From contig NC_064767.1 in assembly GCF_011397635.1 (NCBI RefSeq), forward strand, positions 20,944,537 to 21,008,536: a stretch of DNA of 64,000 nucleotides, given 5' to 3'. This DNA comes from Epinephelus fuscoguttatus (lineage: Eukaryota; Chordata; Actinopteri; Perciformes; Serranidae). The number at the start of each line of letters is the position of its first letter. The first letter of the stretch is position 1. Positions 20,686 through 58,372 of this stretch are shown in pieces. Both the position numbers and the translations under genes were made by a program. The notes beneath the pieces are model-generated. The model was not told the DNA's origin, ran no database searches, and was given only the letters and a program-made list of their open reading frames with translations.

Positions 20686-23600
20686 TCAGTTCCCACCAAG
20701 AGCGTTAAGTGGATCGTCAAATATGTTGCTTGAATCTGCTGCCGTACTGGTCTCCTGAGACGGTGGGGTTTTCTTTGATTTATGGGGTGCCTTCGTGACT
20801 GGTTTTACTGTGCTTGGTGAAAAGATGTCATCTTTACAGAACAGAGAGATGGAAAACATATTTGGTTAAATATGGCAATTAAAAAAAGGGTAGACAACAG
20901 TACAGACCAAAAGTGTGAATTAATAACATTAATGCCTTCATGCCTTATTTTGCTTCTTACCCATGTCATCATCAAATATTGACTTGGTCTCTCCCTTTGT
21001 CTTGGACTTCTGTTTTGGTTTTAAAGTGTCCGTCAGGTCAGCAAAAATGTCTATGTTGTCATCGAACAAGCTGGCATCGAGGGTCTTCTCTTTGTGCTTC
21101 TTGTGAACTTTAGGCACAGCGGCTACTTCATCCTGAGAACACAGAAATTCAGCCAATAAGAAAGGAAATGATGGCACAGAACACCTTGACAGTTTTACCA
21201 TCAATGTAAAATAAAGGTACCTGGAAGATGTCCTGCTTTGAAAAACTACTGCCAATTACTTTACTACTTGTGGATGTGGGAGTGGAGCTGTTGCTCACTC
21301 CAAAGATGTCCTCATCATCGTCATCGTCTTCCAAAAACGACGAGGGCTTGGCTTTCTTAGTAGATGCTCTTGGTTTGACCTTTTGGAAAAGGTCATCAGT
21401 GTTGTCATCAAAGATGGATGGGAGAGTGCTTTTGTCTTTCTTCAGTCCTACCCCACTACTGGCCTGAGGTTGTGCAGTCTTGGTAGTTTGTCTGGTGGAG
21501 GCTGTTTTAGTGACTGAGGTAACCCCGAACAGACTGTCGGAGCCAAAAAGGTCATCCTCATCAGGAGACAGCAGCACCTTGGTACTGCTGCTGTTACTTT
21601 TACTAGAGTCTTTCTTTACAGCGTCTGTGGATACTGGCAGTGTCAGTACAGAGGGTCTGGGGGTGCTTTCAGGGAGAGAGGATTGAGAAGGTGAGGAGGC
21701 GGGCAGGGTTGCAGGTGCAGCTGAGTTAGTTAGTATTGGACTGGGACTCGTCTTGCTGGGCTTCTCTGGTGGAGGTAAGACTGAACCAGACAGACTGGGG
21801 TTTGGCCCAGTATCATCTCCACCCATGGTCTCATCTCTGTCCTTCACAGATCTTTGGGCTGCTTGCTGCCTCGCTGCTCTGGACTGGGGTCTCCGTTGTA
21901 CAGAACCTTTGGCACGACTCTGCATGACAGAAGATTTGCATTTATAATATCAGAGGCTGAGTACACCAACTGGGTGTATGCCTGGGTTTAACATTATGTC
22001 AGACTTAGGGGCCGTACACATGCTGCGTTTGTTGCACCCTCAAATTCATTGTTTTCAATGTAGACGTGCAACAGGTGTGCTCAAACGCAAGAGTGATGCT
22101 CATTTTTCAGGGTGCGACAGCTGCACCCTGAGATGAACCAAGTTCAACTTTTGGAACGCAGCAGCGTGCACTGCATGTCATGTGACAAGGAACATCCAAT
22201 CACAGCCGACAGATATCTTTATCTTCTTCCCTAAATATCAGTCTGCAGTAGTAAATATGGAAAAGTTGATGATTTTGGCGCAGGGCCGCCAGAGCTTTAT
22301 ATCTGTCCCATGGACAATAGGCCCACACCCTTATTACCAGCACCAGGAAAAAGATCAGCTCTGTACTCAGGATTTCAGGCAAACAGGCTATGGTACAGTG
22401 CTTGTTAAGGTTGCTTAGCAACCTCAGATGCAACCTGCTGCTGCGCTCTTAAAAGCTGGCACAAAAAAGGCACAGACATAGAGCCCTGTGCCCGACCTCA
22501 CATTTTCCAGGTGGTTAAGGATGCAGCATGCGTACGGCCCCTTAAAGCTGAAAGTTACGACCGACTTGAGGATATGAGTGTTGCACCATCTAGACTTGCG
22601 CCTGGGTGTAACTTTTACGTCTAGCACGGAGCAGGCATAAGTTGGAAAAACAGTCTAGTATTCGTGGTAATAATTACAGAAAAAATGATAATCACACAAT
22701 CAGAAAACAAAACAGATGATGGCGGTTCATCACGTTTACAGACTAAATAAATAATTAAAGGGCATTAGTTGAGCAAGGGTTGCATGTGATCGCACAAACC
22801 CACTGGACATCTATTAAGACAGCGAGCTGACTGAGAGTTGCGCTTTCGATGACAAGCCCTGTTGAGTTTATTCAAGAGCTCTCCCCTCAACATTTCTGTC
22901 TTGATAGTTTTTGTATGTTTATGTTTAATTTTAACTAATTTAGCTACATTTTTTTGATGCACTGCACACAATTCTGTAAGTTATCTTATGAAAAACTTAT
23001 CGATAAAATTTGTTTCCTTTTTTTAGTTCCATATCTTCCATGGGATGTTTAAAGGCAGAAGTTAAAGTGTGCTTTGTATAGAAAGTTTTGTTTGCAACAT
23101 AATCACTTTGCATATATTCATGTGGATGCGCATCATGCGACCGAGCACAGCTACGACTGTGGTTAGTCAGGCTTGTTGACCTTGGTGTGAATGCAAATCA
23201 CAAAGGCGGACGTGGCTAAGACCAAGCTAAGAGTTGAGACCTACTTTTTTACATCCAGCTGGTGCACTCAGTCCATGAAATCCAATTTTAAGACTTAGAG
23301 ATAACCAATATAATACTCCAGGGATCAAAACCTTACCTTGTGTGCACTCTGCAGTGTCGTAACCTGAACTGGGGAGTCAAAGCTCACTCCTTCCTGGGAT
23401 CCTACAGGAGTTGTGACGGGGCTGGGGCTCAGACTGGAGCTGGACACCCCAGAAGAGGAACTAGGGGCCATACCAGGGAGTACACTTATGGCCCCTGGCA
23501 TACTGGGGGCAGCTCCAGGGAGCAACGCGGCAGGGTTGATCATCAGATTGGCCTGAATATGATAAGATCAGACACACCAATACAATCATTTATCAAGAGT

Positions 23601-26600
23601 GAAAAAAGTTTTAACAGACTTTCTAGTTAACCACACATTTAACCCTTTTCGTGAGGTTTGCCAGAGTGGTTCCATGCAGCCAATCATTCAGAGAAAAATG
23701 AAAAAAGCAGGACTGCAGATGGAAATGAGGCAACAGCAAGATGCAATAACATCTTGTGAAACTGAAAGACACGAGTGAGCAGCTTCTTCCAGTTCAGCAA
23801 AATGAAATCAAGACAGATAATTATATCTTCATTTTGGTAGTCATGCTGCTACATCGCAGTCAAGCTTTGAAGTTGAAACATGGAGAAAGCCCAGACAGAA
23901 GACACCTTGAAAGAGAAAAACGTGTAACTGGGAGGAGAAAAGTATTTCCTCAGGAGGAATCAGAGTGAAATGCCAGGAATGAAGACTTCTGATTCAATAA
24001 AAACAAAAATAATTACTTGAAGTTTCCCAATCCTTGATGAGGAATCTTTAGGTTTTACAGGGCTTGGTGCAGGTTTCTGTGTGGTTAGATTACAGCAGGT
24101 TCAGAATTTAATGTTTCTGTGTTCATCTAGAAAAAATACTGTGTGACTATTACAACATGTCAAAAAGTATTAAAAAAGGAAGCTAATACAAGCAAAAATA
24201 AACCCTTTATCAAACTCCCATGGACACACAGATATGCGTGTTTATGGTTCAAAGAAAACAGCCCATGATATTATTGCATTGTGTGTTTACAGTAGACTCA
24301 CCTGAATCTCTGATACAGGTTCTGGACTTGCTAGAGGTGCTTTGTCAGTGGGTTTACTGGGCTTCTCTGCTACTTTCTGACAATGACAACAAAGAGGAAA
24401 AACAAGAGCTGCTGAATTACAATTTCAATTTCAGTTCAATAACTATTTACAAATATTATTCAAATGGGGTTACAGGAATCCAGCATGAGGCACAAGGAGA
24501 AGCAAGAACAGGAATCCAGAATAATTCTAATCATTGGAGAAATGATCAATTTGCTACCGGAGGAGGAGCTTTTGGCTTGACAGAGCTGAAGAGGTCATCC
24601 TCGTCATCATCTGCGAATAGACTTTGCGATGCTGGCTTCGCTGAGCTGAGCTTGGAGCTCTGAAAAGCACACAGAGTCATGTATCCTTACAATCTAGTGA
24701 AAGACCATCTACATTCAGACACAGTAGAGAGAAAAGAAACAGATCTACAAGCAGATAAGAATATCTAAGGCCCTGTTTAGACCTGATATTAACATGCATT
24801 TTGGTGGACAGCGCTAAATACAAGTGTAACCGACCACCAAGATGCACTGGGATGTCAATACCAGGTCACTTATTTACTGACCGCAGCTTTCCCTGAGGTG
24901 GCAAACAGATCAACATCCGGGTCATTGTCCCTCTGCTGCGTCTGACTGAACAGCAGCTCCTCATCCTGGAAAACACCTGTGCTCTTTGCCTGCGATCGCT
25001 CCTCTGAAGTCTGTGAACACAAAATGATAGAAACATTTCAGTACACTGGCTGCAGCAGAAGAAGCATACCAGTGCAGCTAAATCATTTGCTTACACTATT
25101 CTTCGTTTTACTGAAAATCATACCAACCTTTACCGCATTGCTTGCTGCAGGTTTACTGGGGGTGAATATCGGATCACTCCAGTCTGATTCATCTTCCTCC
25201 TCATCATCAAACAGACTAACAGTGTTTGTTTTGACTTTGTCATCCTTCTTCTCCTCCTTCTTGACATTTGGTGGTGGGCTGTCGTCATTGCCAGTTTCAT
25301 CCAACGGGCTCTTTGTCTCCTTGTTGGCAAGAACATTGATGCCTCCAAAAAGGCTGACTGCTCCGGCAGGCTTCTTTTTACTTTCGCTGATGTCTGGCGA
25401 GGTCGCTGATGGGAGCGGCACAGGAGTCTTTGCTGCTGGCTTCTCCTGCTCTGAAGGCTTGTCCTCTGCTGCTGTTCTAGATACCACAACCTCCTCTGGT
25501 TTCTCAAACAGGGAGGATGACTGAGAGAAGACAGGTATTGAAAAAATTAATCACAGTGTGACAAACTCATAGAGCCAAGTTTTTAATTTGGTGTTTTTGT
25601 GTATTTGAAAAAAAAATCCTTCACCCCTTGAGCTTATTAAACCTTTTTAGAGCCCGCTGGAGGCCATCTTCAAAAAAAGCTTTAGTTGGTGCACTCACTT
25701 TAGTAGCTGGGGCTGCAGTGTTTGTGTTGACAGCAGGTTTGATGCCAAAGAGGGATCCTTTATCTTCATCATCATCACCCTCATCTTCAAACAAAAGAGC
25801 GACTCTTTGAGGCTTCTTCTGACTATATGAAGCGACAGAACAAGAGGTAGGTAAGAATTCATGCCAATACAATATTTTTAAAAACTGATCATCTGTAAAG
25901 TATAATGAAAGTGATTTTAATGCAATAATAATATTTTTTTTTGTATAGCACTTATCTAAGCAAGGTTACAAAGTGCTTCACAAAGTGCATGAAAATAAAA
26001 CAGTAACAGAATACAATATTTTAAAAAAAATGTTAAGAGCGAAGAAAAGGGAAGGGAATAAAACAAACAGGAAATAAAACACAAACATTACAAATCAACA
26101 AGTACATATCAGGAATTACAAAGGGAAAGCTTTCCTATAAAAATATGTTTCAAGCAATGATTTAAAAATGGGTAATGTGCTAGCCAGCTTAATCTCCTCA
26201 GGCAGAGAATTCCAGAGCCTCGGGACCTTGATGGCAAAGGCCAGATCACCTTGCGGTACCAACCTTGATCTAGGGACAACTAGCGAGGGTAGGCTTGAGG
26301 ATCTCAGGTCACGACTTACAGCATAGGTTGTCAGAAGCTCAGCTATATACAGTATCTCACATGAGTACACCCCTCCCATTTTTGGAAATGTTTTATTATA
26401 TCTTTTCATGGGACAACACTATAGAAATGACACTTTGATATAACCTAAAGTAGTCAGTGTACAGCTTGTATAGTAGTATAGATTTACCTTCCTCTGAAAA
26501 TTACTCAAAACACAGCCATCAACATCTAAACAGCTGGCAACATAAGTGAGTACACCCCACAGTGAACATGTCCAAATTGTGCCTAAAGTGTCAATATTTT

Positions 26601-27118
26601 GTGAGCCAACCATTAATATTTAGCACTACCTTAACCCTTTTGGGCATGGAATTCACCAGAGCTCACAGGTTGCTTCAGGAATCCTCTCCCACTCCTCCAT
26701 GATGACATTATGGAGCAGATGGATGTGAAGACACCTTGCGCTACCCCACCTTCAGCTTGAGGATGGTCCACAGGTGCACAGGTGAGTTTAGGGCTGGATA
26801 CATACTTGGCCAGTCCATCACCTTCACCTTCATCTTCCTCAGCAAGGCAGTTGTCATCTACTAGGTGTGTTTTGGGTCCAAGACAACTGTCCCTTGCTTA
26901 CAGTCAAGTATAGTAGTGGCAGCACTCATGGCAACCAATGGCGGTAGGCAAAAATTTGGGTGATTTGTAACCTATGATTTGTCCCAGTTAAAATATGAGC
27001 TGCAGCATTCTGTACTAGTTGAAGCTGATCTACTGATGAGTTACTGAGGCGTGTAAACAGTGCATTATGGTGCAACACAATTGCGACAGTGCGCAGACAT
27101 GTTTTGGCACGGTTTCTA

Positions 27119-27150
<32 letters not shown>

Positions 27151-30100
27151 AACTTAAATTGTAAATACCTTGACGTTGTTGTTGGAGCAAACAGGTCATC
27201 ATCATCCTCATCATCGTTATCAAAGAGGCTGCTTTTGTTAGATATTTTGGCACTGGGGAGACTGGAGGGAGCACTGGCACTGGGCTTCATCCCTGGGGTC
27301 TTGACCTCTGGCTTCCCCGCACTGCTATTAGAACTCAACCACTGATCCTGTCATTCAGATATGCAAGAAAATAATGCATCATATTGTGCGCTCTATTAAA
27401 TGTTAGTATGCAGCAGTGAAATATGCAGTGTTGCAAACTTGACAATTTTCTCGCCAAAGTTAGCAGCTTTTCAGACCCTCTTGTGGCTACCTACTAATTT
27501 AAAAAGACTTATTCAATCCATCAGGGAAAATGCGAGAAGTACACTGTATTGTAATTTATTCCCATGCATGCTGCTTAGGCTAATAGCAGTCCACAGCTCC
27601 TCCACCATCAGCAAGGAGTCTCTCCCCCTCTTTCCTCTCAGAGAGGAGACCTTGGTTGCTGCAAAGGTGGGAGTTCAGCTGGCTTTGGAGGATTTTTCTC
27701 TATTCAATCTAATTCAGCATCCTATATTCAAATGAATGCATGGTGGCGTCACCAATATGCAAAAGACTGGATTGATTTTGCTCACTACTTCCATTGGAAA
27801 AGAGTTAGCAACACTAAAATATGACTTGTCATATTGACTTACCTCATCATCACTGAAGAGCGAGCTGGACACAGTCTTACTGGGCTGCGGTTTGGAGGCT
27901 TTAGCTGTATTAGGTTTTGCTGTAGATTTAGCTGCAGATGCAAACAGATCCTGCAAAGGTGAAGAACCAGATTATTGTAACAGACTCACAGCAATAACAA
28001 GCCAAACCTAATTCCGTTTTGACGAGTGTGTGAAATATTAGTTCATCATTCCCACCTCTTCTTCCTCATCACTAAATAATGACAAAGGAGCCTTGCTGGT
28101 TTTGCCCTGGCTTGTAGGTTCAGGCTTAGAGTGGCTCTTAGGGATGGTTGGAGATTCCTTTGGATGGCAAAAACATACATATGTATAGAGTAATCAAAAT
28201 GTGATATTACTGTTGGCACTTTTTCTCCAGTGAAGTTTGAGAGCCTTACCTGTATGTCTTCATCATCAGAGAAGAGGCCTCTGGTCTGGGGTTTCTGAGG
28301 CTGCTTGACAACAGTCTTCACAGCATCTGGAGCTGGCCCGTTCTGAAATGCACATCACAAAGATAAAAATTTAACAAAGATAGCTTTGTAAATTCTAACT
28401 CCCTTAAGTATGTTGTTTTAGTCTTGAAAGAAAAATCTGACAGAGAGCAAAGAGAACTGAACTGTGTCAACAGGAGTAAAAGCCAGCAGTGCACTCCAAA
28501 CTGAATCGAATTTGGCCTTTTCTCAGACTGCACTTGAATATGGCACTTTGAGCAAACATCAATATACTGACTGCAGCTAGGTCTTTTCATTTAATAGCTT
28601 CCATGAAAGATAAACAAGCTTATGGGTCAATGTGGGAGTGGCCATGACCTCAAAACAAAAAGTTACATTAAAGCTGGTAGAACTCTGAAGGTAATAATAA
28701 AAATGCACTGTGGTCTTGACGGTGTATTAGGAGGCAGTGCAAAACCTTTTGCTCCTTTCTGGTCGATAAACTGACATTTTGCATGTGAAAACACAACAAA
28801 TTAGATTTTGCCAGGAGTATTTTTGTTAGACAAAGATCCATTCAGACCTCCTCAGATTTCTCAGACTCCTCGCTGGTAGACGGCTGGCGTTTTTTCAAGC
28901 CCTCACTGAGCAAGCTTTGAGTCCCAGGTCCAAACATGGAGATGGCGCCTGCCGGCATCTAAACAAAACAATGAATCATCAACAGGGGAACTCGCCACCA
29001 AAGTGTTCAACTTTTGAGACACTTAAAAGGTTGATCTTTACCTTTTTCTCAGGTTGTTTAACCTGCTCTTCGGCTACCTCCTTCTTGCTCTGAGCTGGAG
29101 CCGGTGCACTGTACTTCTCACTGAATATGTCTCCATCCTCATCGTCTTCATCGAAAAGGTCGATAGCTTTCTTGGGTTTCTGCTGTCCAGCTGAAAAGGA
29201 GGGTAAAACAACCAATAATGGAGGGTTTTGTGGGTGTGAATCCCACCTGAACCTGGACTGTAGCACTGAAATGCCAATTCTTACACATTTACCTGAGTCA
29301 GACTTTTTCAAGCTTTTATTACTGAAGAAATCATCATCCTCATCTTCATCATCAAACAGCCCACCGCCTCCTCCGCCAACACTAGCTCCTGAAGGAACCT
29401 GTTTGGTCTTAGGGGCTGGAGTCCCGTTCTCCTTGCTCCCCACTGAATCAGAGTCATTCCCTGAACTGAACAGGCTATTATCTGTGGGCAGAAAGGGTTT
29501 TTGGTTTGGTTAAGGACAATGAAGCAGACAAGGACTTGATATCAGCTGTCATACAAATAAATGCTGCTACCTGGAAATATTGAAACGGCCCCTGCTGGAA
29601 TCTTCTTTCCCGGTTTGTCAGACTCTTGAATGGCAAAGAAAAGTTATGTGTCAATCTGCCAGTTCACTTTCTTCTGTGTGTACCCATTTTATTTACATGT
29701 CTTTGCACATATAAATAAAAACATTGAAAGTTCGTCTTACCTGCAGATTGAGCTGTGCTTTTAGTGCTTTCATTTCGCACCTTCTTCTCTTCGGACACAG
29801 GAGGTTTTGGCGCCTCAGAGAAAAGATCGCCCTGAATAGCACAACATAATAGAGCACAAATCAAATTCTGGCCGAAGTCCAGAGTTTATGGGACTGAATA
29901 GGAGGCAGCTCTGAAAATCATTTAGTTTACTGTACCTCATCATCATCGTCAAACAGGCCTCTCCCTCCACTGAAGAGGCCACTTTTCCCTCCAAATGGGG
30001 AGAAGTCATCATCATCATCCATCTTCGGTGGCTTAAACATGTCATCACTGTCCTCTTCAGCTGCTGTAACAATGTACAGAAACATTATTGAGGAGCATAC

Positions 30101-32722
30101 TGGGAACAATGGGCCCACTGTAGAAATAACGAACTCATAACAAAATAAAAAAGTTTGATGATGAATGAAAGTCTTACCCTGTGGCTTTGCAGGCTTTGGT
30201 TCTTTCCTGCTTTTACTTTTCTTCTTAGATGCCAATGCTTCCAAGACATGACATGGTAGAAACACAAAAGCCATGAACATGAACATGCACATGCGACGAT
30301 GTTGTTGCTTAAATCTCAAATGTAAAACGTGATGCTTTCTTTTCCTTAAATTAAATGTGAAGAGTGGGAGTAACAAAGTGAGATGATATACTGCCAGTTG
30401 GTTGATAATGACAGTGACTTACATGCGCGATCTCCTTCTGGTTTGTTGACTGGTTCGCCTTTGATTCGGGCTGCCAGCTCATCAGCAAAAGACGATGAGC
30501 CTGTGTTCTGTATGTGATGTGAAAACAACCAGATTAACAAATATTATATCTCAGGGCTTGCAATAATGGTTGCCAGGTTGCAACTGGCAACCATTTTGAT
30601 AAAAACTGTCAATCACAGCAAACAGCAAAAAGTGCACCCCCAAAGTAATTCAGTCACTGCATTAAAGCTTTTAAACATTCTTTCATCTCACATTTTCATT
30701 ACTAATCCTAATGACTCAAAATACTATATAAAGGTGACTAAAATAGGCAACCATATTTTTAGTCTCTGCTATCAAAAGCTGATGCCTGGTTTCCAGCCAC
30801 TTTTAAAAGTTAATGCTAAGTGCTGTATCTGAATGATTTTACACTGAAATTACTAATAACTCTCAAAATATCCTTTAAGTACTCGAACAGAGTTATAACA
30901 GACATACCTTTGTGTCCTCATCATCGTCATCCCTGTCTGATTCTCCAAATATGTCAGAATCCTCATCCTCCTCCTCTTCATCATCATCATAACTCAACAT
31001 GGATGACTTCTAGGTGAGTGCGGGAAGGAAATCCAAAATGTTAAAGTTGTCTGCGTCAATGCTCTTCAATCTCTTGATTTGTTTTGGCAGGCATGTGGCC
31101 AAGCTTACCTTCCTGATATTATTGTGACCTTCATCCTCCTCCTGATTAAAGTCGTCATCTGAATGCTGTTAAATACAACAACACATACAATGAGGTTTTA
31201 TATTTCCTGTGCAAGATGTAAAAATACAAGTCCTTGAAAAATACTGTGAAAGAAAAGGGAAAAAAGGTCTTACAACTTCTTCTTTGCCATCTTCACTCTC
31301 AATGACGCTGTCTCTGTCACTGTCGACTGACATTTCTGCAAAGACAATCATAGAGATACATGAGGGAAAATAAGGAGAATAATGAGGGAGTGCCTGAAGA
31401 CATGCCGTGAGTATATTACCATCGCTTGAGAGGTCACCGAGTCCAACGTCCTCTTGTTCCATGAAGGCCTGGGAACCAATCAGATACGGAAGCGGCCTGT
31501 CCACATAAAGATCCTAAAAGACAAGGACAAAAAGAGACACAAAGGGTAAAGTATATTCATGTAAAGATGTGCTATCACATGCACTTCTGCAGTAATTATT
31601 AAGTACTGCTCCAAGATTAGGAGCACACCTTGGGCTCCAGGATGGCCTCCACTCTGTCTGTGACCTCTTCGTCCTCTGAGTCAGAGTTTCCCGCTTTGAT
31701 GTCCAAATGCTCAAAGGCCGACTCCAGCACTCTCAGACCGTGGTTTACAGCTTCCTGCATCTTAGGGATTAACTCTGCCTCTTTCTGCTCACGAGTCTTC
31801 TCCTTTAACGAAAACAAAAATAACTTTCCCAGGGCAATACAAGACTTGTTTATAATGTGTGCCGTGTATTGCAGCTGTACTACCCCTGAATTAATAATAC
31901 TGAAAAGCATTTTTCAGTTTTATATTTGTTGGTCACTCAGGGTTGCACACCATGTCATCAAATGTTAGGAGCAGAAATGATGAAATTCTTTATACCTCAG
32001 GCTGCTTATCCAAAGCATCAGCCTTGGGAATAGCATCTTCTACCTCTTCATCATACACTCTCTGTAACAGGACAAAAAGTTTGTTACCAGACTGACATCA
32101 TATAAACCGAAACATTTTTGTTTCAAAAGTACACAAACAAGTAGACTAAATTGTGCAAGGTGTAGCAGAAAATGCAAAATTGAAGTAGAACAAAAAAGTT
32201 TCAATTATATACATTACATTTTCTATGAACTGTGTATTGGAAAGCATGAGGAAGTCATTGAAGACAGAGTGCAAGCAGCTATCTGTGGCCTTGGTGTCAC
32301 GGATCAGACTGTCCAACTGCTTTTCAATATCGTGTGTCTTTGACAGCATTCTCTGGGAGAAGTCTTGGAGAAACAGGAAGAGCTGTGAAGAAAAAAAAAA
32401 CGGTTATGTTATGGCGACAGCATCAGTTGCAAAGTTCCTTCCATTACAGCAAAGTAGAACACATTTCACAATCTCCTCCACTACTTAAATTGGGGCAACA
32501 TTTTTCTGACTTTTAAAGAAAATATGATGATGAATTACTTGGCCTTTTTCAGAGCTGGGGACAAACTTTCCGACTTACCCCAGAGTCGGCTGCCAAGGAC
32601 CAGTTGGCACTGCTCTGCCGCATCTCTTCAAGAGTCCAGGGTCTCTCCCAAACCTGAGCATCTTTGTCTAAGTGTTCACCTCTGCTTGGGCCATTTGCTA
32701 TTCCCTCCGGCAACCCGCTCAT
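20686..32722 (-). CDS. washc2: WASH complex subunit 2 (FAM21), 30 coding exons
   Basis: Coding exons: 32722-32579, 32382-32218, 32061-31996, 31802-31629, 31513-31420, 31335-31274, 31165-31109, 31009-30908, 30507-30423, 30237-30178, 30063-29936, 29831-29741, 29624-29571, 29481-29293, 29190-29042, 28958-28848, 28342-28250, 28157-28056, 27950-27843, 27347-27169, 25822-25699, 25520-25134, 25010-24882, 24659-24558, 24376-24302, 24076-24017, 23552-23337, 21919-21221, 21132-20961, 20831-20686. They total 1440 aa; human FAM21 is about 1320-1340. The N-terminal ~220 residues are the conserved head that binds the WASH complex ([30 protein letters not shown]). The tail is a long acidic disordered region with some 20 LF-acidic-LF motifs, which bind retromer VPS35. 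The end, [12 protein letters not shown], is diagnostic. The product acts on endosomes, linking WASH/Arp2/3 actin nucleation to retromer. The second exon begins exactly at the ATG. Confidence 0.97.
21221..23552 (-). other. washc2: Capping-protein-interaction region of FAM21
   Basis: Exon 23552-23337 carries [11 protein letters not shown] and ends in LQSAHK. Exon 21919-21221 opens with [17 protein letters not shown]. Joined, around residues 1095-1120, this aligns with the human block LHSANKSR..RRPQTRAARR. It fits the CPI-type motif through which FAM21 binds actin capping protein. The match is from memory of the human protein. Confidence 0.65.
22008..22541. mobile_element. 534-bp Harbinger/ISL2EU-like MITE with TTA target duplication
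   Basis: The terminal inverted repeat is GGGGCCGTAC[A/G]CATGCTGC, flanked by TTA on both sides (22005-22007 and 22542-22544). It lies in the washc2 intron between exons 23552-23337 and 21919-21221. A short internal frame near 22257 ([12 protein letters not shown], then [12 protein letters not shown]) faintly resembles a MADF/Myb-like domain start. Confidence 0.75.
24770..24866. mobile_element. MITE-like fragment next to a washc2 splice donor
   Basis: The sequence GGCCCTGTTTAGACCTGATA through GGACAGCGCTAAATACAAG resembles a common fish non-autonomous DNA element. It stops about 15 bases from the donor of exon 25010-24882. Confidence 0.45.
25930..27115 (-). mobile_element. L2-type LINE 3' fragment, interrupted by Tc1
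   Basis: On the minus strand, 27115-26940 encodes [16 protein letters not shown] and HWLP, and 26340-26116 encodes [16 protein letters not shown] and YFYRKAF. These are consecutive parts of the ORF2 C-terminal tail of L2/Rex-like LINEs. A 3' tail resembling GTAACCTTGCTTAGA...GTGCTATAC (25940-26000) ends it. It is 5'-truncated and inactive, within a washc2 intron. Confidence 0.75.
26345..26940. mobile_element. Tc1/mariner-like fragment nested in the LINE
   Basis: It begins TACAGTATCTCACATGAGTA, a known terminal sequence of a widespread fish Tc1 family. The body follows that family, with a heavily mutated [12 protein letters not shown] transposase remnant on the minus strand and internal deletion. 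It splits the LINE reading between HWLP and AELLTTY. The right end is not cleanly defined. Confidence 0.65.
27118..27155. repeat. (AAAAC)n microsatellite
   Basis: Several AAAAC copies lie at the 5' edge of the LINE fragment, about 15 bases from the donor of washc2 exon 27347-27169. Confidence 0.8.
30565..30595. repeat. Perfect 12-bp inverted repeat with 7-base loop
   Basis: AATGGTTGCCAG, loop GTTGCAA, CTGGCAACCATT, in the washc2 intron between exons 31009-30908 and 30507-30423. The preceding CAGGGCTTGC could be a hAT-like end. Confidence 0.85.
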
Positions 32723-37668: not shown

Positions 37669-37674
37669 TTTATT
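37669..37674 (-). other. slf2: AATAAA polyadenylation signal of slf2
   Basis: Plus-strand TTTATT (AATAAA on the minus strand) lies about 130 bases past the slf2 stop codon. Confidence 0.5.
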
Positions 37675-37800: not shown

Positions 37801-38562
37801 CTACAGTAGATCACATGCTGCCACCTGGTTGTGGTGAGATGTTTTTCTTGCCTCAACCAGATTTTCAGTTTCTACCTCAGTATGCTCTGCATTTCTAGCC
37901 TCCACTTGCTCGTGTACGTAAGGCTCCATCTCTGGCATCTCGTGGTTCAACTCCCTTAGTATTGTTTGTGTTGCTTCCTCAGTTTCCTTTGTGTCATCCA
38001 TTGCATTATCTCCCTCCATTCCTTCTGGCTTTACGTCGCCCCCAGTCTCATTTGTGTCCATTATATTGTCTGCCTCTGTTTCATCTGGCTTTATGTCGCC
38101 CCCAGTCTCATTTGTGTCCACTGTATCATCTCCCTCCGTTTCTTCTGGCTTTATGTCGCCCCTCATCTTGTTTGTGTCGATTGTACCGTCTGCCTCTGTT
38201 TCGTCTGGCTTTACATCGTCCCCAGTCTCGTTTGTGTCCACTGTATCATCTCCCACCGTTTCTTCTGGCTTTACGTCACCCCTCATCTTGTCTGTGTCCA
38301 TTGTATCGTCTGCCTCTGTTTCATCTGGCTTTATGTAATCCTCTGTTTTATCCGTGTCATCCGTTGTATCGTCTCGCTCTTCCTTGTCCTCGTCCTCAGA
38401 TATCATTGCAACCTCTTCAGTTCCAGTTTCATTGGGTTCCTCTTCTTCACTCTCCTCCATCACCGGCCCCTCTTCATCATCACTGTTGACCACCTCCTCC
38501 TCTTCTTGGCTGCTTGTCAATGTATCCACAGACAAAGGCTGCCAATAATCATACAGCTTACC
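37801..38562 (-). other. slf2: slf2 terminal exon: acidic C-terminal extension with tandem repeats
   Basis: The exon opens with GKLYDYWQP, which aligns to the last residues of human SLF2, then stays open for 762 bases to a TAG at 37801-37803. It runs through an Asp/Glu-rich stretch (EEEEVVNSDDEE), six 20-aa repeats (plus-strand 37981-38340), a seventh degenerate unit (38341-38400) and a non-repeated acidic tail. If the preceding 154-base intron (38563-38716) were retained, translation would stop two codons past the donor. Confidence 0.85.
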
Positions 38563-41500
38563 CTACAGGAGGACAATATAGAATTGTACATCAGAATTAT
38601 ACAATCGTTTGACATAATTAGAGGACTCCTTATTTTAACTGCTTTTATCTTTTAGATAGACGAAGAATTTGTTAAAAGTAATTATTTATATAAGAGTAAG
38701 TATAAGACTACTGTACATGGAGGGGCCTGGTCCTCTGAAGGAGCATCGACCACTTGGTGTAGATCCTGGCCACCAGGTCCTTGACCTGGAGGAAGAAGGA
38801 GGAGGTAGACATTGTCAAACACACTTCTTCAAGAGAGAGCAGCCTGCTTTTAATGATTGGCTTGCATGACTGCATCTTGAAACAACGACAGCAATGATTG
38901 ATTAAGGTATCATCAAAAATTAAGATAATTGTTTGCTGACGTCAAAACTTCATCTGTTCCAACTCCTTAATTGTGGATTTTTGTTGACAGTAAGATGGAA
39001 AGATCAATCAAGACCAATTCTCAACATTATGATCACCTGTAACAATTTTGTAAGATCAGGCTGTACGTCCCTTACAGCTGAACCAACCAGATAGTGAAAC
39101 GGAACAGATATAAACATGCGTGATGTGTTTGTGTTCTAAGTGAGGCTACTTCTTGAGTTTTAGCCATCAAAATGCATCAGTAATCATTTGTAATTGCATT
39201 GTAGCCCTTTGAATCAGAATCAAATTGGGAGGTGCCGAGAGATTCCCACCCCTACCAAATTCAGCGGGCTAGTGTTTAATGTAACAGTCCTCAAACAAAT
39301 TAGTTAACCTGACTGGTGTTGTCATGGGCTACACTTGATGTACTTTTGAATGTAAATTGTGCACCTCTTGTGTCTTCTGTATTTGTGTCTACTGGGTTGC
39401 TATGAATTTTAACTCTGTCTTTTGTCGCTGCTGTTTCACTACATTTTTTACATCAACCTGCCTATAGGGATAACAGATGGAAATTAGCTATGGGCTACAA
39501 TCTGGCGTATTTACATATACTCATGTATTTGTTCATTAATATGCATTGTCCCTTTAGACTACTACAAACTACTGGCTACTGTATCGGTGTGATCCTCCCT
39601 GCCTTCTGAGGAACTTCCCCTTAATATTCCTGACTGTACAGATATTCTGCACCTCTGCCAGGGGTGCTTTGATTGTACAAACTGATCTATCTTTCAGAAC
39701 TCACTTAAAAGCATTGATTAACTAAATGTTGTGGTGTGCAGCAATGGGATAGTGGATTCCTATGAAGGTGCTTTTCTCTTACCAAAATACTAAGCCCTAC
39801 AAAGTTTCTCTGGAGAGGGGACAAAATTGCTTCTGCTATTACTAGAAGGGATGTTAGCATGGAACAGCATGAATGTGATGGCATGTCTACACAGTAAGTG
39901 CAGTATAGTCTCTCTGCATGGGGTTAGTTCTGATGAGCAGCTAGTGGATAACTCAAGCAGCTTTTAGTTTAGATTTGCCAGCTATGATTTCTGTGATAAA
40001 ACTAGTGTCAGGGACAGTGCTGCCACTGACATCAACATAGCATTCAAAGGGTTTTTATTTGAATGAGACTCGTTAGTAATGGAAAGTTTTGAGAGACTGG
40101 TTAAACAAGAGATACTGAGGCAGGTGGAACATCAGGTATGTCCACTTCAGCATGTTTAACAAAGTTAGAGGTGTTTCAGATGCCAGACTTAATACAATTG
40201 GAGGATTCTGAGAGCAACACTAAGCTCTTACTCACTGACTTTCCCCCAGTCAGTCGCACAATCCAGCCAGTTATTTCTTTGTTACTTCTAATTGCAAATC
40301 TCATTTATTAACAGACTCTCCACAGGGTTGTATTTTGTCTGCTATTTTTCTTCTCTTGTACACAAATTTAGCAAAAACAACATGGGTGTGTTATATCATA
40401 TCATTCATGATAGTGCTGCTTTAATTTCATATCATCCGACTTGTTGACATACTGTTACGCATAGCAACAACATAGCTGAAAGTGAGACTGCTACCGGCCC
40501 ATGCTGAGTGGCGTTGTTAGAACTGGGCAGTCTGAATGTTTTATTAACAGCCCCAGACTTTTTAGACTCTTTAATCAACTTGCTTCTCAGAGTAAACTCA
40601 GTTAACAGCTCCTCTGGCAGCAGCACAGCACCCCTCTCTTCTTCTCCTCTTTCACTGTACACATACAGAAACAGGTGCTGCCAAGTCATTTTGTCATAAG
40701 CCTGTCATAATGTAAGCTTACATGATGCCTGACAAGAAACTTTATATGTGTGAATGTGGGAAAGTCATCGTAACATAACAGCCTGTCAATAAATGCAGGT
40801 CTTTGTGTGTGTGTGTGTGTGTGAGTGTACTATGGGGGAATTCTGATTGTCGGCACTGAGAGAGTTACAGCAGAGTAGCAGACAAAGGGCTGAGCGTACA
40901 GGTCCAAAATCTCTTCCAGGATAGAAGTGTGTCTATTGCCATCTTAATTTCTAATACATGTTTTTATTACTGATGAATATTTCTAAATTTTTAATATTCC
41001 TAATATTTCAATTTTTTATATTCTATACTGCTTCGTGCTTTTGACTTAAGTTTTTTTGTGTATTGCCTCTGTATTCCTGTGATTTATGTATATAATGCAC
41101 AGCTGCAAACCAAATGTCCTTCAGGATAATAACAACGATGACGTTCAAACTTGAAAGCATTCAGAAACGACAAACCTCTGTCAAGGCTGCACTTTTTTTT
41201 AAAAAATTTGTTGGAGGAAAAAGTAGAAAAATGTTCTGCGTGTGGGCTCAAAATATACACCAATACACACACAAATACTCAAAGATCTTTTTGAAATCAA
41301 ACTCACCTTGCTCCGGTAGAGACATTTCTCGCTTTCTCTAATGTCACACTTAACATGCGTTTCTAGCTCATAGCATAAAACCAGCAGCTGCTTCTGTAAA
41401 TCAGAAGAAAAAGGCAAAAAAACATTAACACACCTCTCACAGGAAGAAGGATATCACCATCTTCAAACATTAAATGATGTAAGTCGCACCTTTTGATGAG

Positions 41501-44500
41501 CTGGGAAGAACTGAAAATTGGAAGCTTCATTTGCCAAGGTCAGAAGGCTGTAGCAGAGATAGTAAGACTGAGACAAAGAATACATGGGAAGAAAGTTGCA
41601 TTAGAAACATCTGTAAATTATGTTTGATCCATTCACATTAACATTCAGTTCAGGATTCTTTTACTTACATATTAAAAAAAAATCACTAGACATGACAAAG
41701 AAGTGGAGAATTCGAGACAGAGTTTTAGGCTGGAACATTTTAAGGTTTCAGGCATATGCTCACCTGTTGGTCTAAGGTGTTCATGTCGTCTTCTTTCTCT
41801 TTCTGACTCCTGCTGGAGGAGCTCAGCATGCATCGGAGAAGGGTGGAGGGTTGCATACGAGGCAGGTATGGCCTCAGTTTAGAGAGCTGAGCATACAAGA
41901 GCAGGAGGATGGGAGAACTATAGATTATTAACTATAGATTACTGAAGTGCACATATTTCATCTGTTGGGCTCTACAGCACACTGTGTAGGTTTAGGTTAC
42001 ACACTGAAACAAATTACCTGAAACTCCTTTTCTGTAGGTCTGTAAGTGCAATTTCCATCCAGCAGTTTTGAGATCATGGACAGACTCAGATGTCTCCGCA
42101 GTTGCCTATACAAACAAAAGTGAACAGCTTTTAATGTGAAATACAATAAAATCAATTATCAAAATTAAAAGATTCATTGTTTGGATAAAGAAGAGACAAG
42201 CAGAGAAAAACAGATTAAAAGACTTACTTTCCACGTGTGTTGTCAGGCAGCAGTTGAACAAGCAGGCACATGTTGTGGTGGTCATCTGTCAGATCAGTCA
42301 GGGCTCGACAGATTCTGGGCAGCTGAAGACATTTCAGATAAATAATCAATAATTAACTATATTAAAAAATTATCATTTATTTTATGAAAAGGTGAAAAGG
42401 GTTCATAAACACTTTGGTCAGTTGATTTCCATGCTTTAAAAAAAATCCCAACCAAACATGTATGCATATAAGGACATACAATATTAATCACAATAGTTCC
42501 AAACATGTATTAAACACTTCTTTCTTTTTGACACCTTTAAAGATTTTCATCTGATGTTAAAAGGTGCAAAGTGTAAAATATGGGCAGAATTTTAGTCTGA
42601 AACATTGATAAAATGAACAGGATGTAAAAGTAACAGTTCTGATATTATGTCAAAGACATCTATTTGTGTTGTTACAACTACTATTAGATATCTGAAATGA
42701 GCATGCTAACTAGCTAGCCCCGGCCGGTCCTGTCTTGTCTTGGCTTTAGCTCTTGGTAAGTGACCTTTATCACCAACCCAACCACCAGCTTGCTGCAGGA
42801 AACCACATTTGGCGGAAAAGAAAATAGGTGACATAAAAAGAAGCAAAACAAGAGTAAACATTGGTGTGGCTTTTGATCGTTGGAGACAGTTATGTAAGGG
42901 ATAATGTATAGTGAGCCGGTGACTAACTGATTTTGATGCTCCTCAGTCTAAGGCCGTTGCTATGGCGTCCCTAGCAACGGAGCAGCAGAGCAACGGTGAT
43001 ACCTCAAGAAATAAACACTGCAGAATTTTGTTGATTGACTAATCAGAATCAAGCATTTAAGAGTGCCATCTTGTAATGCCAAGTAAAGAGGTGAGGTTTG
43101 ATGCAGAACTCACAACCTTTCTTTTAGACTGGTAAGTAACATCTAATGTTGGCTATTCAGTGAAACATTTCTTTAGTGCAACTAATGACACTGAAAAAAC
43201 ATTACAAATGGCATTGATACATGGCTTTGATGTGGCTGTTTTCTTGCTTATATGGTCTTGCTTAAACTGAGCCAAGCAAGCTATAATATAAACTATAGGG
43301 TGACCCAGTCTTTCAGTAGTTTGGTAGAGTTTTGCATATTTTTGCCCTGCTGTTTGGAGGGCAAAGAGGTGAAAAGCTGTCCCACTTTAGTTCTGTCCCC
43401 ATGTGGTCAGGCATTACACATTGCACCTTTAACCATGCCAGCTGCCCACAGTGATTAACATTTTATTCGTCATGTAATGGTAAATATTCAGATTAATGTA
43501 ATATTTTTCAAAAACTTTTCCAAGCCTGGAAAAAGCACATCAGTGATTTTCATGGAATCGGAGGTATGCATGAACTAACCATGGTGTCCCAGTCCTTGAT
43601 GTTGTTGACAACTTTGTACTGTAAAGGGTACAGTTCCACACTGGACTGGAGGATGAGCCGTGTGTCCAGGCCCACCCTTCCCACCACGGTAAGCAACAAC
43701 AGCAGCTCATCGTCACTGTACGCCTTTGGACAGAGGCCCATACAGTAAGACAGGTACTGCAGATGAGAACACAGAGGAAACAACGAAGAGGTGAATGATC
43801 TGAATGGTGAAGCTGTGCTCTTTTTGCCAAACTCTCTTTCTCACAGACATGACAGCAAACTGCTCCTATCAGACATCTGTTTGCATTTGCATCTCACCTT
43901 CAGGATGTTGTTGCAGTTGTGCTCGGGGAAAATGGTCTGCTCCTTGTTACTAGAGGGACTCTCACTTTTGATACAGATGTCCTCCCTACATAAACAGACA
44001 GATATTCAACTGCATGAAATAAAAAATAACAACTTTCAGCTCACGCTCTAAGCTCTTACATAAGAAACAAGGAAATGTATGAAACAGGAACACTACTCAC
44101 AGCAAATCTCCCTCTGTGAATGGAGGCTGCAGGTTCTCAAAAGGGAAGAGAGTGACAAACGCAATTCCCATATTCATCAGGACCAAGGCCACATCAGCCA
44201 AACTGGGCACCCACACTTTAAACTGTTGATTTCCATTTTTCACTGAGGAAGCACACACAGGAAAAAAAAACATGGTTACATGTCTTAACAATAGAAGGAA
44301 ATACCAAAATACCAAAAGCTTGAGTGAAGGGAACTGACCTATCTGATAAGCAGCTGTGCAAGCGATGTCACAGAGGGCCTGAAGAATCTTTTCAGATACT
44401 ATCCTTTCATTGTGGACTGACATCATCTGACAGAATCAACAAACAATTACTTCCAAAGCTCAGACATTTGGACAGAAATCATTAGTGGCATGCTACAGGT

Positions 44501-47500
44501 GTGCGTGGGGCCTACCTTGAATAGGAAACGGGTAACCTGAGCTGGACAGGGCGAGTGACAGTCGAAAGCTTCCTGGAACAATCCAATATTTAAATGCAGT
44601 CTCAGCTGAGCAGGGCTGGACCTGGGGAACATAAGTTGAGAGAAAAGGTATTCATTAAATCAGACAGTAAGATGAAAAACGGCCTTAATATATGGGGCAC
44701 AGACTTGTCACGTAGGCGGGGTGGCTCAGGGTTTATTTTATTATGTGCTACACAGACTCCGTCTTTGTAGCGTTTGTGGTTGTGTGCCAGCTTCACTGTG
44801 TGCATACTGAGTTTTACCAAGTGAAAATGGCAATATTAACTGGTGCTACATGAATTAACTGGATCATTTAGCTACAGGATGCACTGTTATGATTGATTTT
44901 AATTTTTTTTTTTTTTTTTTTTTTTTACACAGTTCAGAGTAGTTTTTACATTTTTTAAGGGCAGCAGAGGCATGTGTAGGAAAAATAATGGACACATTAA
45001 CTGTTATGCCATGTTTGTGCCCCATGTATTTCAGATGTAAAGCTTTGGTATTTGTCAATATAGGCTGCAATGTTCACTACAGAGGTTAAAAATTTAATTT
45101 GTCCTCTGGGTGGCCTTAAGGAAATGCCATGGTGTCATTAAAATCAAAAGGTCCATCCCCTTGTAAGCAGTAATGAGCCATCATGCAAGATACAAGATTA
45201 ACTTTATTGTCTCACAAAGTGAGAAATTTGTTCTGGGCTGTTGGCCCATGCTGCAGCCACAACACAGAACATACAATACGATACAACACAATACCAAACA
45301 TACAATAGATATGCACATTCCATATCATACAAGGTGCCGAAAAGTGCAAGAAACATGTTCAATTAAAAAATGAATAAATAAAAGAATGAATAAATAACAC
45401 CTAATAGGGCTAATAAAATGCTAAAATTATAATAAGTAAAAATACTAACCTGTGCAAAACAAACAAAAGCAAGTCATCTGAGTTCTGGTCTTATCTGACC
45501 TTGTTTACCAGTTTTATTGACACAGGAACAAATGAGTTTTTAAATCTGTTCAGTCTGCAGTGAGGAACTCTAAACCTTCTACCAGATGGTAGAAGATGTC
45601 TTGTGTGCAGATAAGTTCACATATTGGCCTTAGGGATATGCAAAAGGAGCTGTTGTCAAAGACAACAACGATTCATCCTCTGGGAAGCATGAATGTGCTG
45701 TGCTGATCTGACCATCATATAATGATGTTATACAGTATTTATATGAGTATTACACTTGACATGGACAGGATGGTAGGTCAAAATGATCAACAGCTCTGGG
45801 GCAAATGATCAATCTCGTCAATGGCAAGACATGTTGCTCTGAACCTCCCATATGTCCACACAATAAAACAACTTACCAAAGAAGCGTTTTCTGTGCTGCC
45901 CCCTGTGGACTGACCATGCATTGTCTGAGCTGCAGTGTATCTTGGCTGAAGATCTGGCCAAATTTCTCCAGGTTGAACACGACTTCTCCTGGAGGCACTT
46001 CCCTGATTGCATTGGACATCAAAGAGTAGCGCTGCAAGAATTCCCTAAAAGACAAATAACATAAAAATACAGTTAACAGTTAAATGCTGTGAAAGGCATG
46101 GTTGCCAGTGACAAGGTATAATGCACCAGTGTTTTTGTATGCTTTACTGTTGTTCGGTGGAGACACCCTCCTCTCGGTTCTCCTCAGCCTCCTCGTATTC
46201 AGCTATTCTCAACAGGTCCTCTTCACATGCAGTTAGAAGTTGTGCCTCGAGCTCTTTGGCTCTGATGGATAAACAGAGAGTGGAAAAAGTTAACTCCTCT
46301 CATGTGCAGCTTTGTAGCTCAAATTAAAAAGGTAGTTGGAGTGACATTTTCTGTATAATATACCTTTTAGTGGAGTTAATTTCCTTCAGCATCTGGTCGA
46401 GGTTGTTCTTGTAGGTACCACACTTTGTCGTGGATGGCAATGGCTGCTGTGGAAACACAACCAACAACACTTAGTGGTTTTATTGGTCCTTTAGCTTAGC
46501 AAGTTCATGCTCATTCATAACTTTATGTACAGCAAAGACAAGCCATGCGAAGCTTACAGTTTTTGACTGGCTGCTGCGATGTCCAGGTGTACTGGGCTCT
46601 GAGAAGGCTCCCTTCTCCGGCGTATCTGGAGGCTTGGTAACACGCTCCATCATCTCCTGCAGGGAAATCAGCTGTTCGTCCTCACTGCTCTGGGAGCTCT
46701 GGGTTAGATCCACATCTACTGCAAAGCTCAAGTCCAGATCCAGCTCCACATCTATAGGATCCTCTTCACTCACCATCTTTCTACGCCCTTCACTTACCTG
46801 CCTCTCCAGCAGTGGAGACAGAGAATGATGAGATGTAGCAGTTGTGGTCACAGTCTCACTCTCTAAAGCGCATGTTCCCACATTGTTGGGGAGGAGAGAT
46901 GTGTGTTTCTCATCAGATTTAACACTCTCATCCTTAAGCTGCCTGCCCGAAGAACTGGTGGGGCTCTTTTTGAGTTTACTGTTTTTGGAGCAAATGGGTT
47001 TTAAGTTCTCAAGTTTTACCCGCTCTAATGCCACAGTTGGCATGTAGACTTGTGGGAGAGGAGCTGATGATGAGTCTTGGGTGTCCACTGCATGAAAAGA
47101 ACCAGTTTTGCGACACAAGGATGCAGTAACAGAAGTACTGGAGCTGGTCACAGTGCTGGATGGACATCCTTTCTCTGAGGATGGGGATTTGATCCCATCT
47201 GTCCTGAGCTTTACAGTCTTATGGCCAGTGCTGAATACATAGGTCAAGGGATCAGGGGTGAACAGCTCATCTATATCATTAGGGATTGCAACAGATCTTT
47301 TTGGACGGGGGTTTTTGGTCCGTTCTGCTGTGCGACAACTCAGAGAACCTGAATTCGTCTTTGAGGCTGGTTTTGGAGTGCTGTTGTCCGACTTTCTGCT
47401 CTCCTCCACATGATTTCCTCTGCTCAGGGTCCTGACTGGCAAGACTGAAGTATTACGGTGAGTATGACCAGAGAGGTGGTTGCCTAACTGAGCATGAGGT

Positions 47501-50500
47501 GAGCTACCAGTGTCCTTCTGGGGAACCTCGGAGGATAACAAAGGGTCTGACCTATCCCTTTTATCGTTTTCCACGCTTCTTTTCCTCAAACTCTCTTCAT
47601 CTGGTTTTGGAGGTGACCTTAACTCTATTAACAAAGTATGATTCTGGGTGAAATTTAAATAGGCTTGCTGCGCCCCTGTTGATGGTTGTCTCTTTACACA
47701 AGTTTTGGGTGTCAGTGATGCACAGGATGACTGGGTGGGTTTAAACGTGGATGACAGTTCCAGGCATGCTGACTGACCACGTGCTGGTTCTGGTTCTGAG
47801 CACAGATGGCGATCGATGGTTTTGGGTGACAGTTCCAAGACTGAAGAATGCATCGATGATGGCTGAGACATCAGTGAAGTGTTGAGTGAGTTGCCAACAG
47901 TAGGCTTTGGTGTCTGTGCTTTGCCTGTGTTTATAGCTGGAAGACACAGTTTCTTGGCACTGTCGTCACAGTCCTCAAACTCCCTGCACCTCTTCTGAGA
48001 TGAGCAATTATAGTCCACGACTGGGGACAAAAAAAGACATCAAAATATACCTTTTTTAAGAATGTAAAAATTCAAATAATTATACATATACTGCAATTTG
48101 TGGCATGTAAAAGTAACAGCTTCTTACGAAACTACCAACAGTTCAAGCTCATGTTTATGTTTCCAGGTTTTTAGCAACTTGTTAAAAACACAAGTGCAAA
48201 AGCCAAGTAATTCCTATGAACACTGTAGTACAGAAAACATGAATATCGATGATAAAGAGGGGAAGTTTCTGGATGATTAAAGCTGATATTTTTTACATTA
48301 TTTTTTTAATCTGTTATGGTGGACTGTAGTGAAACATTAAAAATAGTACTGTAGCTGAGGATGACAATTATACTCTGCGACTGAGGAAATGTCAACCCAA
48401 TTATTTATGACATGCCAGACTAGTTGACTTTCCCAACGCCATCTCTGTTTATCACTGAGGTAAATCAAATTCACATTACACACAGGTCAATAACAATTTC
48501 AGTGCAGTCATGCTATAAGATGGAAAAATCTTGTTCTGCAAACTCAAAAGCCTGTTGTCACTTACTGCAAGATAACATGCAAACAAGGTTAAAGATTGCA
48601 GCTTTATGAGTAACAGGTGGAAAGTGAAAAATGGGCAGATTTACTTTGACATTATTACCTGGAATTAAGTTTTCTCTTGAAGGTGTTCGTTTATGTTGTT
48701 GGTCCTACAAAAGAAAAGAACAGAACAATGTGACTATTTAAGAAGCAGGCTTCTTTTAGTAAAAAAAACACAGCAACATTAGCGTTGCTATGCAGAACTC
48801 CAAACTAACTTTTTCCACTGGTAGCACTGGTACTAGCTGTGGACAATTTTAGTAGCACCACCTACATCAACATGTAACACAACAGTTAAAGTTTGCTGGT
48901 GTTTGCTGGGAACATAGATGAAATCACCAATGTTCACACCTCAAGTATTTATATATATATAAAGCTATCTCAAGTTGCAAAATGTTGGACTTTAATTCTG
49001 GCAATCCTCCAAACTGACACCAACAATCCTGTATAGTAGACTTTTACATAAATATCAGTAAATTAAACTAAATACAGCCCTGTGATAGTCTGGTGACCTG
49101 TTTTAGGTGTACCCCACCTCTGGCCAAATGTCAGCTGGGATAAGCTGTAGCCCCCTCGCAACCCTCGTCAAGATAAGCGGTTATGGATAATAAATTAATG
49201 AATAAATGAATGAATTAACTTAACACTTAACACCTGGCAAATGCTCTTTAACTTATCAAAGGTATATCACCTGAATTTTTGTTTTAAAAAGTCTTATTAA
49301 AAAGACTGAGAACCCAGCATCATGCTCTCTTCAACGCCACAAGCCTGATTTGAGGTTCGACTTCCAGATTATCAAAACCCCCGACCTGAACTTGATGTTT
49401 GATGGAGCATGACAAATGTTACCTGGCAAGGAGCTACAGGACTGTGCATGTTGGGTAAACTGGAACCACTACTGCTGACAGAAGACTGGGGACTCGGAGA
49501 AGGCTGGTAGACAAGCGGGGGCACCTGGCTGTCAGAGGGACCACTGGCAGGACTCCAGTGTTCTGAGCCTGAGGGGGCCAGTGTGCAAACTCCTTGAACT
49601 GCTCTGGTGTTGAATGATGAGGTAATAGGGGGTCGATGGAGCTGGATAGTTTGTATGGACCCTCTCACCTCGCTTGATTGAGCCTAACAGACAGAGTAAA
49701 CATTAATAGCCACAACAATTTAGCACCACATACTGCTATACTGTAGTACAGGTTATAAACAAGACAGTTTTTTAAACAAGCCCTGGTTTCACTGATGGCT
49801 ATATTGAAAAAAAGAAAACAATACCTTGTTTGATTCTTGTCTTTGTGCAGTTACATTTTTGCTTCCTGAGTAAGACCAGTTGTCCTTGGATTCAGTCCCT
49901 TGATCTCTCCTGATGTGGGAAGATGGGGAGTGGTTGCTTAAATCCTTCATGAATTGAGGGGGTGCAGGGTAAAAGACGCCCGGTGGCCTATTAGCTGTAG
50001 TACTACTACTAGTTGGTGTGACTGGAGCATACCCAGATGGGCAGAAAGACCCTGGGGGTTGACGCTGTTGGTGGGGCTGAGGACCCAGTCTGCCTCTTGG
50101 CATGGTTTGGAACCTATTCACGGAGGCACCAATGTTAGTTGGGCTGCTTGGAACAAACCCTGATGAATGGACTGGTCCCGGAGGATAAGGGGGGTGCCAT
50201 GGTGGACCCAGTCTGTCCCTGTAGCATGGCTCAGGGCTTTGAAATGGCAACATTCTCCTAGAAGATGGGTGAGAGAGCCAGTTAGGGACCTGAGAGGGCT
50301 TCACTGGAGTCTCCTGGAGAAAAGGTGTGAAATGGGATCTGAAGTGCTGCTGGATTACGAGGTCCTTCACTAAAACAGAGAAGACACACATGTGGATCAT
50401 GGCCTAACATACCCTAAAATATGGGGTGCCACTGAATGCTCAAGTTTAAACAGGTCTACCTGTTGTCATTTGTCAGCCAGCAAGGGCCCATGATGCTTAT

Positions 50501-55579: not shown

Positions 55580-58372
<2,793 letters not shown>

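Follow-up and report, generated by a model that had tools for sequence, protein, structure and literature searches.

Does the DNA-repair protein SLF2 of Epinephelus fuscoguttatus carry SUMO-acceptor sites of its own, or do the SUMO-like motifs at the end of its gene only reflect the repeated copying of one short piece of DNA? The question is raised by the terminal coding exon of slf2 (37801-38562), which lies in a window of 64,000 nucleotides; this is the whole stretch of DNA that was analysed, and all features described in it lie on the minus strand. The exon consists of a single open frame of 253 aa followed by the stop codon TAG, and an AATAAA polyadenylation-like signal is located at 37669-37674, about 127 nt downstream of the stop codon. 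The splice acceptor reads ...TTGTCCTCCTGTAG followed by GGTAAG, also given as TCCTGTAG followed by GG. The penultimate exon (38717-38785, limits set by eye) encodes the 23 aa VKDLVARIYTKWSMLLQRTRPLH, ends at the donor CAT/GTACAG and can be aligned with its human counterpart as far as the splice junction: it closes with RPLH and the terminal exon opens with GKLYDYWQP, in parallel to human RPTQGQLHDFWVP. GKLYDYWQP pairs with GQLHDFWVP of human SLF2 (7t5p_B), and it is inside the conserved C-terminal peptide GKLYDYWQPLSVD (38524-38562) that the human protein ends. The joined slf2 exons matched 7t5p_B with an E value of 6.7e-72 in four stretches that are spread over chain residues 70-537 (of 539), i. 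e. the human chain ends two residues past the aligned proline. Further upstream, the exons at 42045-46431 matched the CANIN domain (PF14816) in a profile search, with the two outermost N-terminal matches being weak alone, and hmmscan found CANIN in two slf2 exons. A preliminary description of the sequence had assigned the terminal exon to slf2, and both the CANIN exons upstream and the in-frame human SLF2 end bear this out. In the 1.05-Gb genome, nine of the ten CANIN matches fall in slf2, the remaining one being weak (E 9); thus a single slf2 copy is seen, the counts being lower bounds. Eight of the nine slf2 matches were marked as over the cut-off, three of these only jointly with their neighbours.

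Several other genes were recognised in the window. The gene adjoining slf2 at 21152-31913, which we take to be the WASH-complex gene FAM21/WASHC2, contains a CAP-ZIP_m domain (PF15255) in 21152-21949 and many acidic LFDDE-like repeats; its exons at 25086-25550 and 31620-31913 matched no family. On the other flank, at 56159-57351, there are two exons of the histidine phosphatase superfamily (PF00300), of which one passed the cut-off and the other narrowly missed it, presumably of a phosphoglycerate mutase gene. An AN1-type zinc-finger exon (PF01428) at 2577-2933 could, as we assume, belong to ZFAND4.

Comparison of the sequences indicates that a C-terminal tail of about 240 aa is missing in human SLF2, because the human chain stops two residues after the shared GQLHDFWVP end. 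The human construct comprises residues 635-1173 (PMC9708086), and residues 1161-1173 are described as the most C-terminal ones of human SLF2 (PMC12656486); by the relevant passages of these two papers, the human protein therefore stops where the tail starts. The exon is made up of 13 first residues, a 63-aa linker (38335-38523), a 113-aa repeat part and 64 C-terminal residues (37804-37995), and as a whole it has a net charge of -70 and a pI of 4.05. The net charge per residue is -0.43 in the linker, -0.27 in the repeat part and -0.17 in the C-terminal 64 residues. An AlphaFold2 single-sequence model of the exon, in which confidence is low except for about the last 64 residues (mean pLDDT 54, pTM 0.17), leaves the acidic linker without regular structure (predicted disordered, block pLDDT about 43-53) and the repeats almost without. 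For residues 189-252 it predicts helices (189-208 and 212-252) with moderate confidence, the block pLDDT of the C-terminal part being 67-81. By this model, the tail is probably mostly disordered. The very end of the exon, past the repeats, could form a coiled coil in the same prediction.

The searches for relatives of the tail brought little. Pfam gave no family in the tail, nor in three N-terminal frames. The terminal exon alone had no match in the PDB up to an E value of 1, a search that says little since it also missed human SLF2, with which the exon shares an end of only nine residues. Two further hits, to the 40S ribosomal protein S0 (E 0.18), concern an acidic tail and were judged to be chance matches. 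We also rejected EF-hand- or dockerin-like loops (DTNETGGDVKPE), a motif compared from recall: the DTNETG stretch is missing in units 1, 3 and 6, and no Pfam family supports such loops. A DNA search of the genome, by a tool that skips simple repeats, returned the locus itself only, and in viral_contigs none of the 27 candidate stretches was a relative. Finally, none of the paper titles listed dealt with a tail of fish SLF2 or with a tandem array of SUMO sites in SLF2.

What distinguishes the tail is its repeat array. Six tandem units of 20 aa with one [V/I]KP[D/E] motif apiece had been proposed, and these are indeed encoded in the translation of 37801-38562: the motifs are, in protein order, IKPD, VKPE, VKPD, IKPE, IKPD and VKPE, and their hydrophobic residues occupy positions 77, 97, 117, 137, 157 and 177 of the exon, at a spacing of exactly 20 aa. 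The reported identity of the Lys-Pro codons was found as well, with AAG CCA in all six units. The units follow each other as types A and B: unit 1 (IKPDETEADDTMDTDKMRGD, 38275-38334) and unit 3 (VKPDETEADGTIDTNKMRGD, 38155-38214) are of type A, unit 2 (VKPEETVGDDTVDTNETGDD, 38215-38274) and unit 4 (IKPEETEGDDTVDTNETGGD, 38095-38154) of type B. Unit 5 (IKPDETEADNIMDTNETGGD, 38035-38094) is a mosaic of both, as its codons 4-9 equal those of unit 1 and its codons 13-20 those of unit 4, and unit 6 (VKPEGMEGDNAMDDTKETEE, 37975-38034) is of type B and becomes ragged past codon 13. KPDETEAD is common to units 1, 3 and 5, and KPE and GD stand at matching places in units 2, 4 and 6. Tandem Repeats Finder detected a period of 60 (38024-38333, score 406) and, with the higher score of 524, a period of 120 with 2.8 copies (37997-38336), the 120-bp array thus ending at 37997 within unit 6. 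The array therefore is three copies of a 40-aa (120-bp) A/B dimer. Six units are present as described, but the higher-order unit is 120 bp long, and the sixth unit is recognisable for only about 13 codons; its nucleotide identity to the others is 58-65%, as compared to 75-92% among units 1-5. The dimer alone explains why Asp and Glu alternate in the motifs. In GAN codons, third-position changes swap only Asp and Glu. Six independent motifs can be ruled out, since with three A/B dimers the sites are not independent of each other and descend from one or two. Moreover, the mosaic unit 5 is a sign of unequal exchange, so that the length of the array may vary between individuals. The preliminary description had cautioned that recent duplication alone could account for the constant codons. 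It was right to raise duplication, but recency is only part of the matter: the pairwise dS among units 1-5 is 0.17-0.53, and these units are not very recent.

How good are the motifs as SUMO sites? That all six agree with the SUMO consensus was confirmed, psi-K-x-[D/E] being found in 6/6 units. The Glu form (KxE) is present in three sites and KxD in the other three; in a survey of reported sites, [IVL]KxE is given as the most frequent SUMO consensus (PMC3395311). The inverted SUMO consensus was absent. The tetrads that follow x1-x2 in units 1 to 6 are EADD, VGDD, EADG, EGDD, EADN and EGDN, so two or three of the four residues are acidic, and it is these four positions that were replaced in the NDSM mutant peptides of PMC5727262. 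Judged by sequence against this published description, each of the six sites agrees with the acidic sub-class of SUMO motifs known as NDSM. In the same work, the constants for UBC9 binding were 56-70 uM with NDSM peptides as compared to 13 uM with the RanGAP1 site, and the NDSM pattern therefore is no guarantee of strong UBC9 binding. With this qualification, it is plausible that the sites of the tail could serve as SUMO acceptors.

The number of motifs has to be viewed in the light of the repetition. Shuffling the residues of the whole exon, which ignores repetition, gave a mean of 0.74 motifs and never six in 5000 shuffles. When the 20 unit columns were shuffled jointly in 50,000 trials, six motifs were obtained in 2.6% (psi = VILMF) or 0.9% (psi = VIL) of the trials, and the count of six thus mainly reflects the repetition of one motif. 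Four control frames of the window, hand-picked rather than sampled, contain three (519 aa, the long exon of slf2), two (266 aa), one (155 aa) and no (176 aa) psi-K-x-[D/E] motifs. In this long exon (46483-48039), the motifs are VKLE, LKDE and VKSD, and there are seven SIM-like matches including FAVDVDLTQSSQSSED, all as raw counts. The linker of the tail also contains a SIM-like peptide, VAMISEDED (38386-38412); it was rejected as evidence for a SIM, as shuffling yields 0.99 matches on average and the single match found is not above chance.

Since the motifs were copied together with the units, the relevant issue is whether they are better preserved than the rest of the array. In the motif codons 1-4, 2 of the 12 columns are variable as compared to 29 of 48 elsewhere (Fisher one-sided 0.007); if unit 6 is trimmed, 22 of 48 non-motif columns vary (Fisher one-sided 0.06). 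The longest invariant run covers ten columns, with a permutation P of 0.011 for the full array and 0.096 with unit 6 trimmed. All six nucleotides of Lys-Pro are invariant while 31 of 60 columns vary (24 of 60 with unit 6 trimmed), and Lys and Pro are the only two codon columns without any change. The Asp columns 9, an NDSM slot, and 13 show silent changes only. For the array as a whole, pN/pS over the unit pairs is 0.75 as compared to 0.68, 0.72 and 0.77 in the three open frames of the opposite strand, and the variable columns are spread 9/11/11 over the codon positions. Thus, the array as a whole is without clear frame-specific coding constraint. We also simulated neutral evolution along a neighbour-joining tree of the non-motif columns (20,000 runs, two ancestors), a tree that ignores the exchange between copies to which the mosaic unit 5 points. 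Six psi-K-x-[D/E] motifs were kept in 2.8% and 2.7% of the runs for the two ancestors, and six strict [VI]KP[DE] motifs in 0.6% and 0.4%; at half the branch lengths, these values rose to 16% and 7%, respectively. Taken at face value, the sequence data are suggestive of selection on the SUMO motif beyond copying, at a borderline level.

A connection of SLF2 to SUMO is not without precedent. Human SLF2 is drawn among the candidate targets of the SUMO protease SENP6 (PMC6965010), which makes a SUMO role for SLF2 plausible. SIMC1 localises through its SUMO-binding SIMs and pairs with SLF2 as an Nse5/6-like dimer (PMC9708086). SUMO inhibition raised plasmid expression, which did not increase significantly further when SIMC1 or SLF2 was knocked out, the effect of SUMO inhibition being larger than that of the loss of SIMC1-SLF2, and in a supported model residues of SLF2 near the C-terminus contact the SMC6 neck (PMC12656486). 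In yeast, depletion of Nse6 resulted in less sumoylation of Smc5 and Smc6 (PMC13142630, a preprint). The genome of E. fuscoguttatus had at least five zf-Nse (PF11789) matches over the cut-off with 150 of 185 candidates scored; the best match among those scored (E 2.9e-5, C8:30534566-30534670) is a candidate NSE2, and the other four, which occupy a stretch of about 450 kb on C1, could represent different genes of the RING type.

Two observations limit what the tail can be expected to do. Human mRNA rescued the phenotypes of a zebrafish slf2 knock-down (PMC9636423). This rescue by a tail-less protein argues against an essential role of the tail, provided that zebrafish Slf2 itself has one. Moreover, residues 1161-1173 of human SLF2 are reported as conserved and unstructured, and their deletion left SMC6 binding unchanged (PMC12656486); this also argues, less directly, against an essential role, as it is there that the tail joins. 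Judging from the rescue, the tail probably has no more than an accessory part in what SLF2 does in development. The GxLxDxW motif (38524-38562) that is common to the human and the E. fuscoguttatus proteins lies in this human stretch that is dispensable for SMC6 binding.

We consider an accessory role of the acidic repeat tail as SUMO acceptor as the leading explanation, tentatively and at somewhat less than an even chance. Several of the findings speak against it: the array lacks clear coding constraint, six motifs survive neutral evolution in 16% of the runs at half the branch lengths, three sites have the less common KxD form, UBC9 binds NDSM peptides less tightly than the RanGAP1 site, SUMO inhibition affects plasmids more than the loss of SIMC1-SLF2 does, and human mRNA rescued zebrafish. 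Hardly less probable is that the tail is just an acidic spacer which is tolerated. In this view, a 60-bp repeat of the minisatellite kind expanded within a disordered extension, a chance motif of the founding unit was copied along with it, and the lysines are without any role. The 120-bp dimers and the mosaic unit 5, which point to exchange among copies, agree with such a spacer, and so do the lack of a codon-position signature with a pN/pS of 0.75 and the absence of the tail from human SLF2. The chance of 1-3% in the column shuffles is unremarkable, too, given the many classes of motifs that might have been noticed. A mere spacer accounts less well for the invariance of Lys-Pro at six nucleotides amid 24 (trimmed) or 31 of 60 variable columns, and for the two Asp columns that change only silently.

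These Asp columns (9 and 13) also bear on another view: the function might lie in the acidity itself, the tail being a polyanion open to phosphorylation that acts as a competitor of DNA or as a ligand of basic partners such as histones or the DNA surfaces of SMC5/6 by the SMC6 neck, with the lysines being incidental. The charge and pI of the exon, its 16 CK2-like [ST]xx[DE] sites and the retention of Asp through silent changes would suit this idea. Yet Lys and Pro rather than the acidic residues are the only columns without any change, and the CK2-like sites were rejected as evidence, as they are not above the shuffles (mean 13.6, P 0.24); a purely polyanionic function thus seems unlikely to us. 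The least probable view is that the exon is mis-modelled and that the main transcript does not translate the array in this frame. On the opposite strand, too, three frames have no stop codon in the array. However, the exon opens with the conserved SLF2 end known from human, in frame with the preceding exon over the splice junction, its 253 codons are open up to the stop codon with AATAAA following about 127 nt on, and its own strand has nine and ten stop codons in the two alternative frames of the array.

For the accessory SUMO-acceptor role, the following scenario can be envisaged. It starts from what is directly seen: how the tail is built, where the human protein stops, the arrangement in dimers and the mosaic nature of unit 5. 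The extension of about 240 aa would have been gained in the lineage of E. fuscoguttatus or lost on the way to human, and its core may have grown by unequal exchange, from a 60-bp unit to the A/B dimer of 120 bp and from there to three dimers. Copied from a single ancestral NDSM-type site (psi-K-P-[D/E] plus acidic residues), the six sites would act as accessory SUMO acceptors. The tail would exit the Nse5/6-like module, which docks on the SMC6 neck, and could thus become a substrate of UBC9 and NSE2 in cis, provided that the presumed geometry allows it to reach the SUMO ligase. Proteases of the SENP6 type could trim SUMO from the tail. The attached SUMO might tune the residence time of SMC5/6 at SUMO-rich sites, with the six sites being redundant rather than a core requirement. 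The preliminary description had suggested a multivalent SUMO platform by which the tail might strengthen the recruitment of SMC5/6 or SIMC1, and this is hypothetical. It is possible to go further, to a built-in SUMO-acceptor array of variable length that was gained in this fish lineage: as many as six NDSM sites would be charged in cis by NSE2/UBC9, the SIMs of SIMC1 in neighbouring complexes would read the chains, and the repeat number would set the accumulation of SMC5/6 on foreign or damaged DNA. This bolder version is improbable at present; if it were true, the recruiter would carry its own SUMO scaffold, and silencing by SMC5/6 could be adjusted heritably through the number of repeats.

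In the human SIMC1-SLF2 branch of SMC5/6, SUMO recognition is ascribed to SIMC1. An SLF2 with SUMO sites of its own would put the acceptor into the recruiter, and the six lysines would provide a handle on how SUMO valency controls the residence of SMC5/6; a possible repeat-number polymorphism could be used to compare individuals. If the motif is incidental, the locus is a warning that tandem duplication can make one chance motif look like a striking array.

Human SLF2 (FAM178A, Nse6-like; 7t5p chain B, 635-1173) shares with the E. fuscoguttatus protein the CANIN domain and the VKDLVARI..RP..GxLxDxW end; the human protein ends two residues past the aligned proline, whereas SLF2 of E. fuscoguttatus runs about 240 aa further. 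The NDSM sites of the Elk1, CBP and Calpain2 peptides (PMC5727262) resemble those of the tail in having psi-K-x-E/D followed by acidic residues. Unlike in these peptides, the putative sites of the tail are present six-fold in a region predicted to be disordered, and half of them have Asp instead of Glu. Finally, the human SIMC1-SLF2 and SLF1/2 complexes (PMC9708086, PMC12656486) contain the same SLF2 subunit and have a function that is linked to SUMO. In the relevant passages of these papers, nothing is said of a tail with SUMO-acceptor sites on SLF2, and it is the SIMs of SIMC1 that read SUMO in the human SIMC1-SLF2 complex, whereas in E. fuscoguttatus SLF2 itself may offer sites to which SUMO could be attached.
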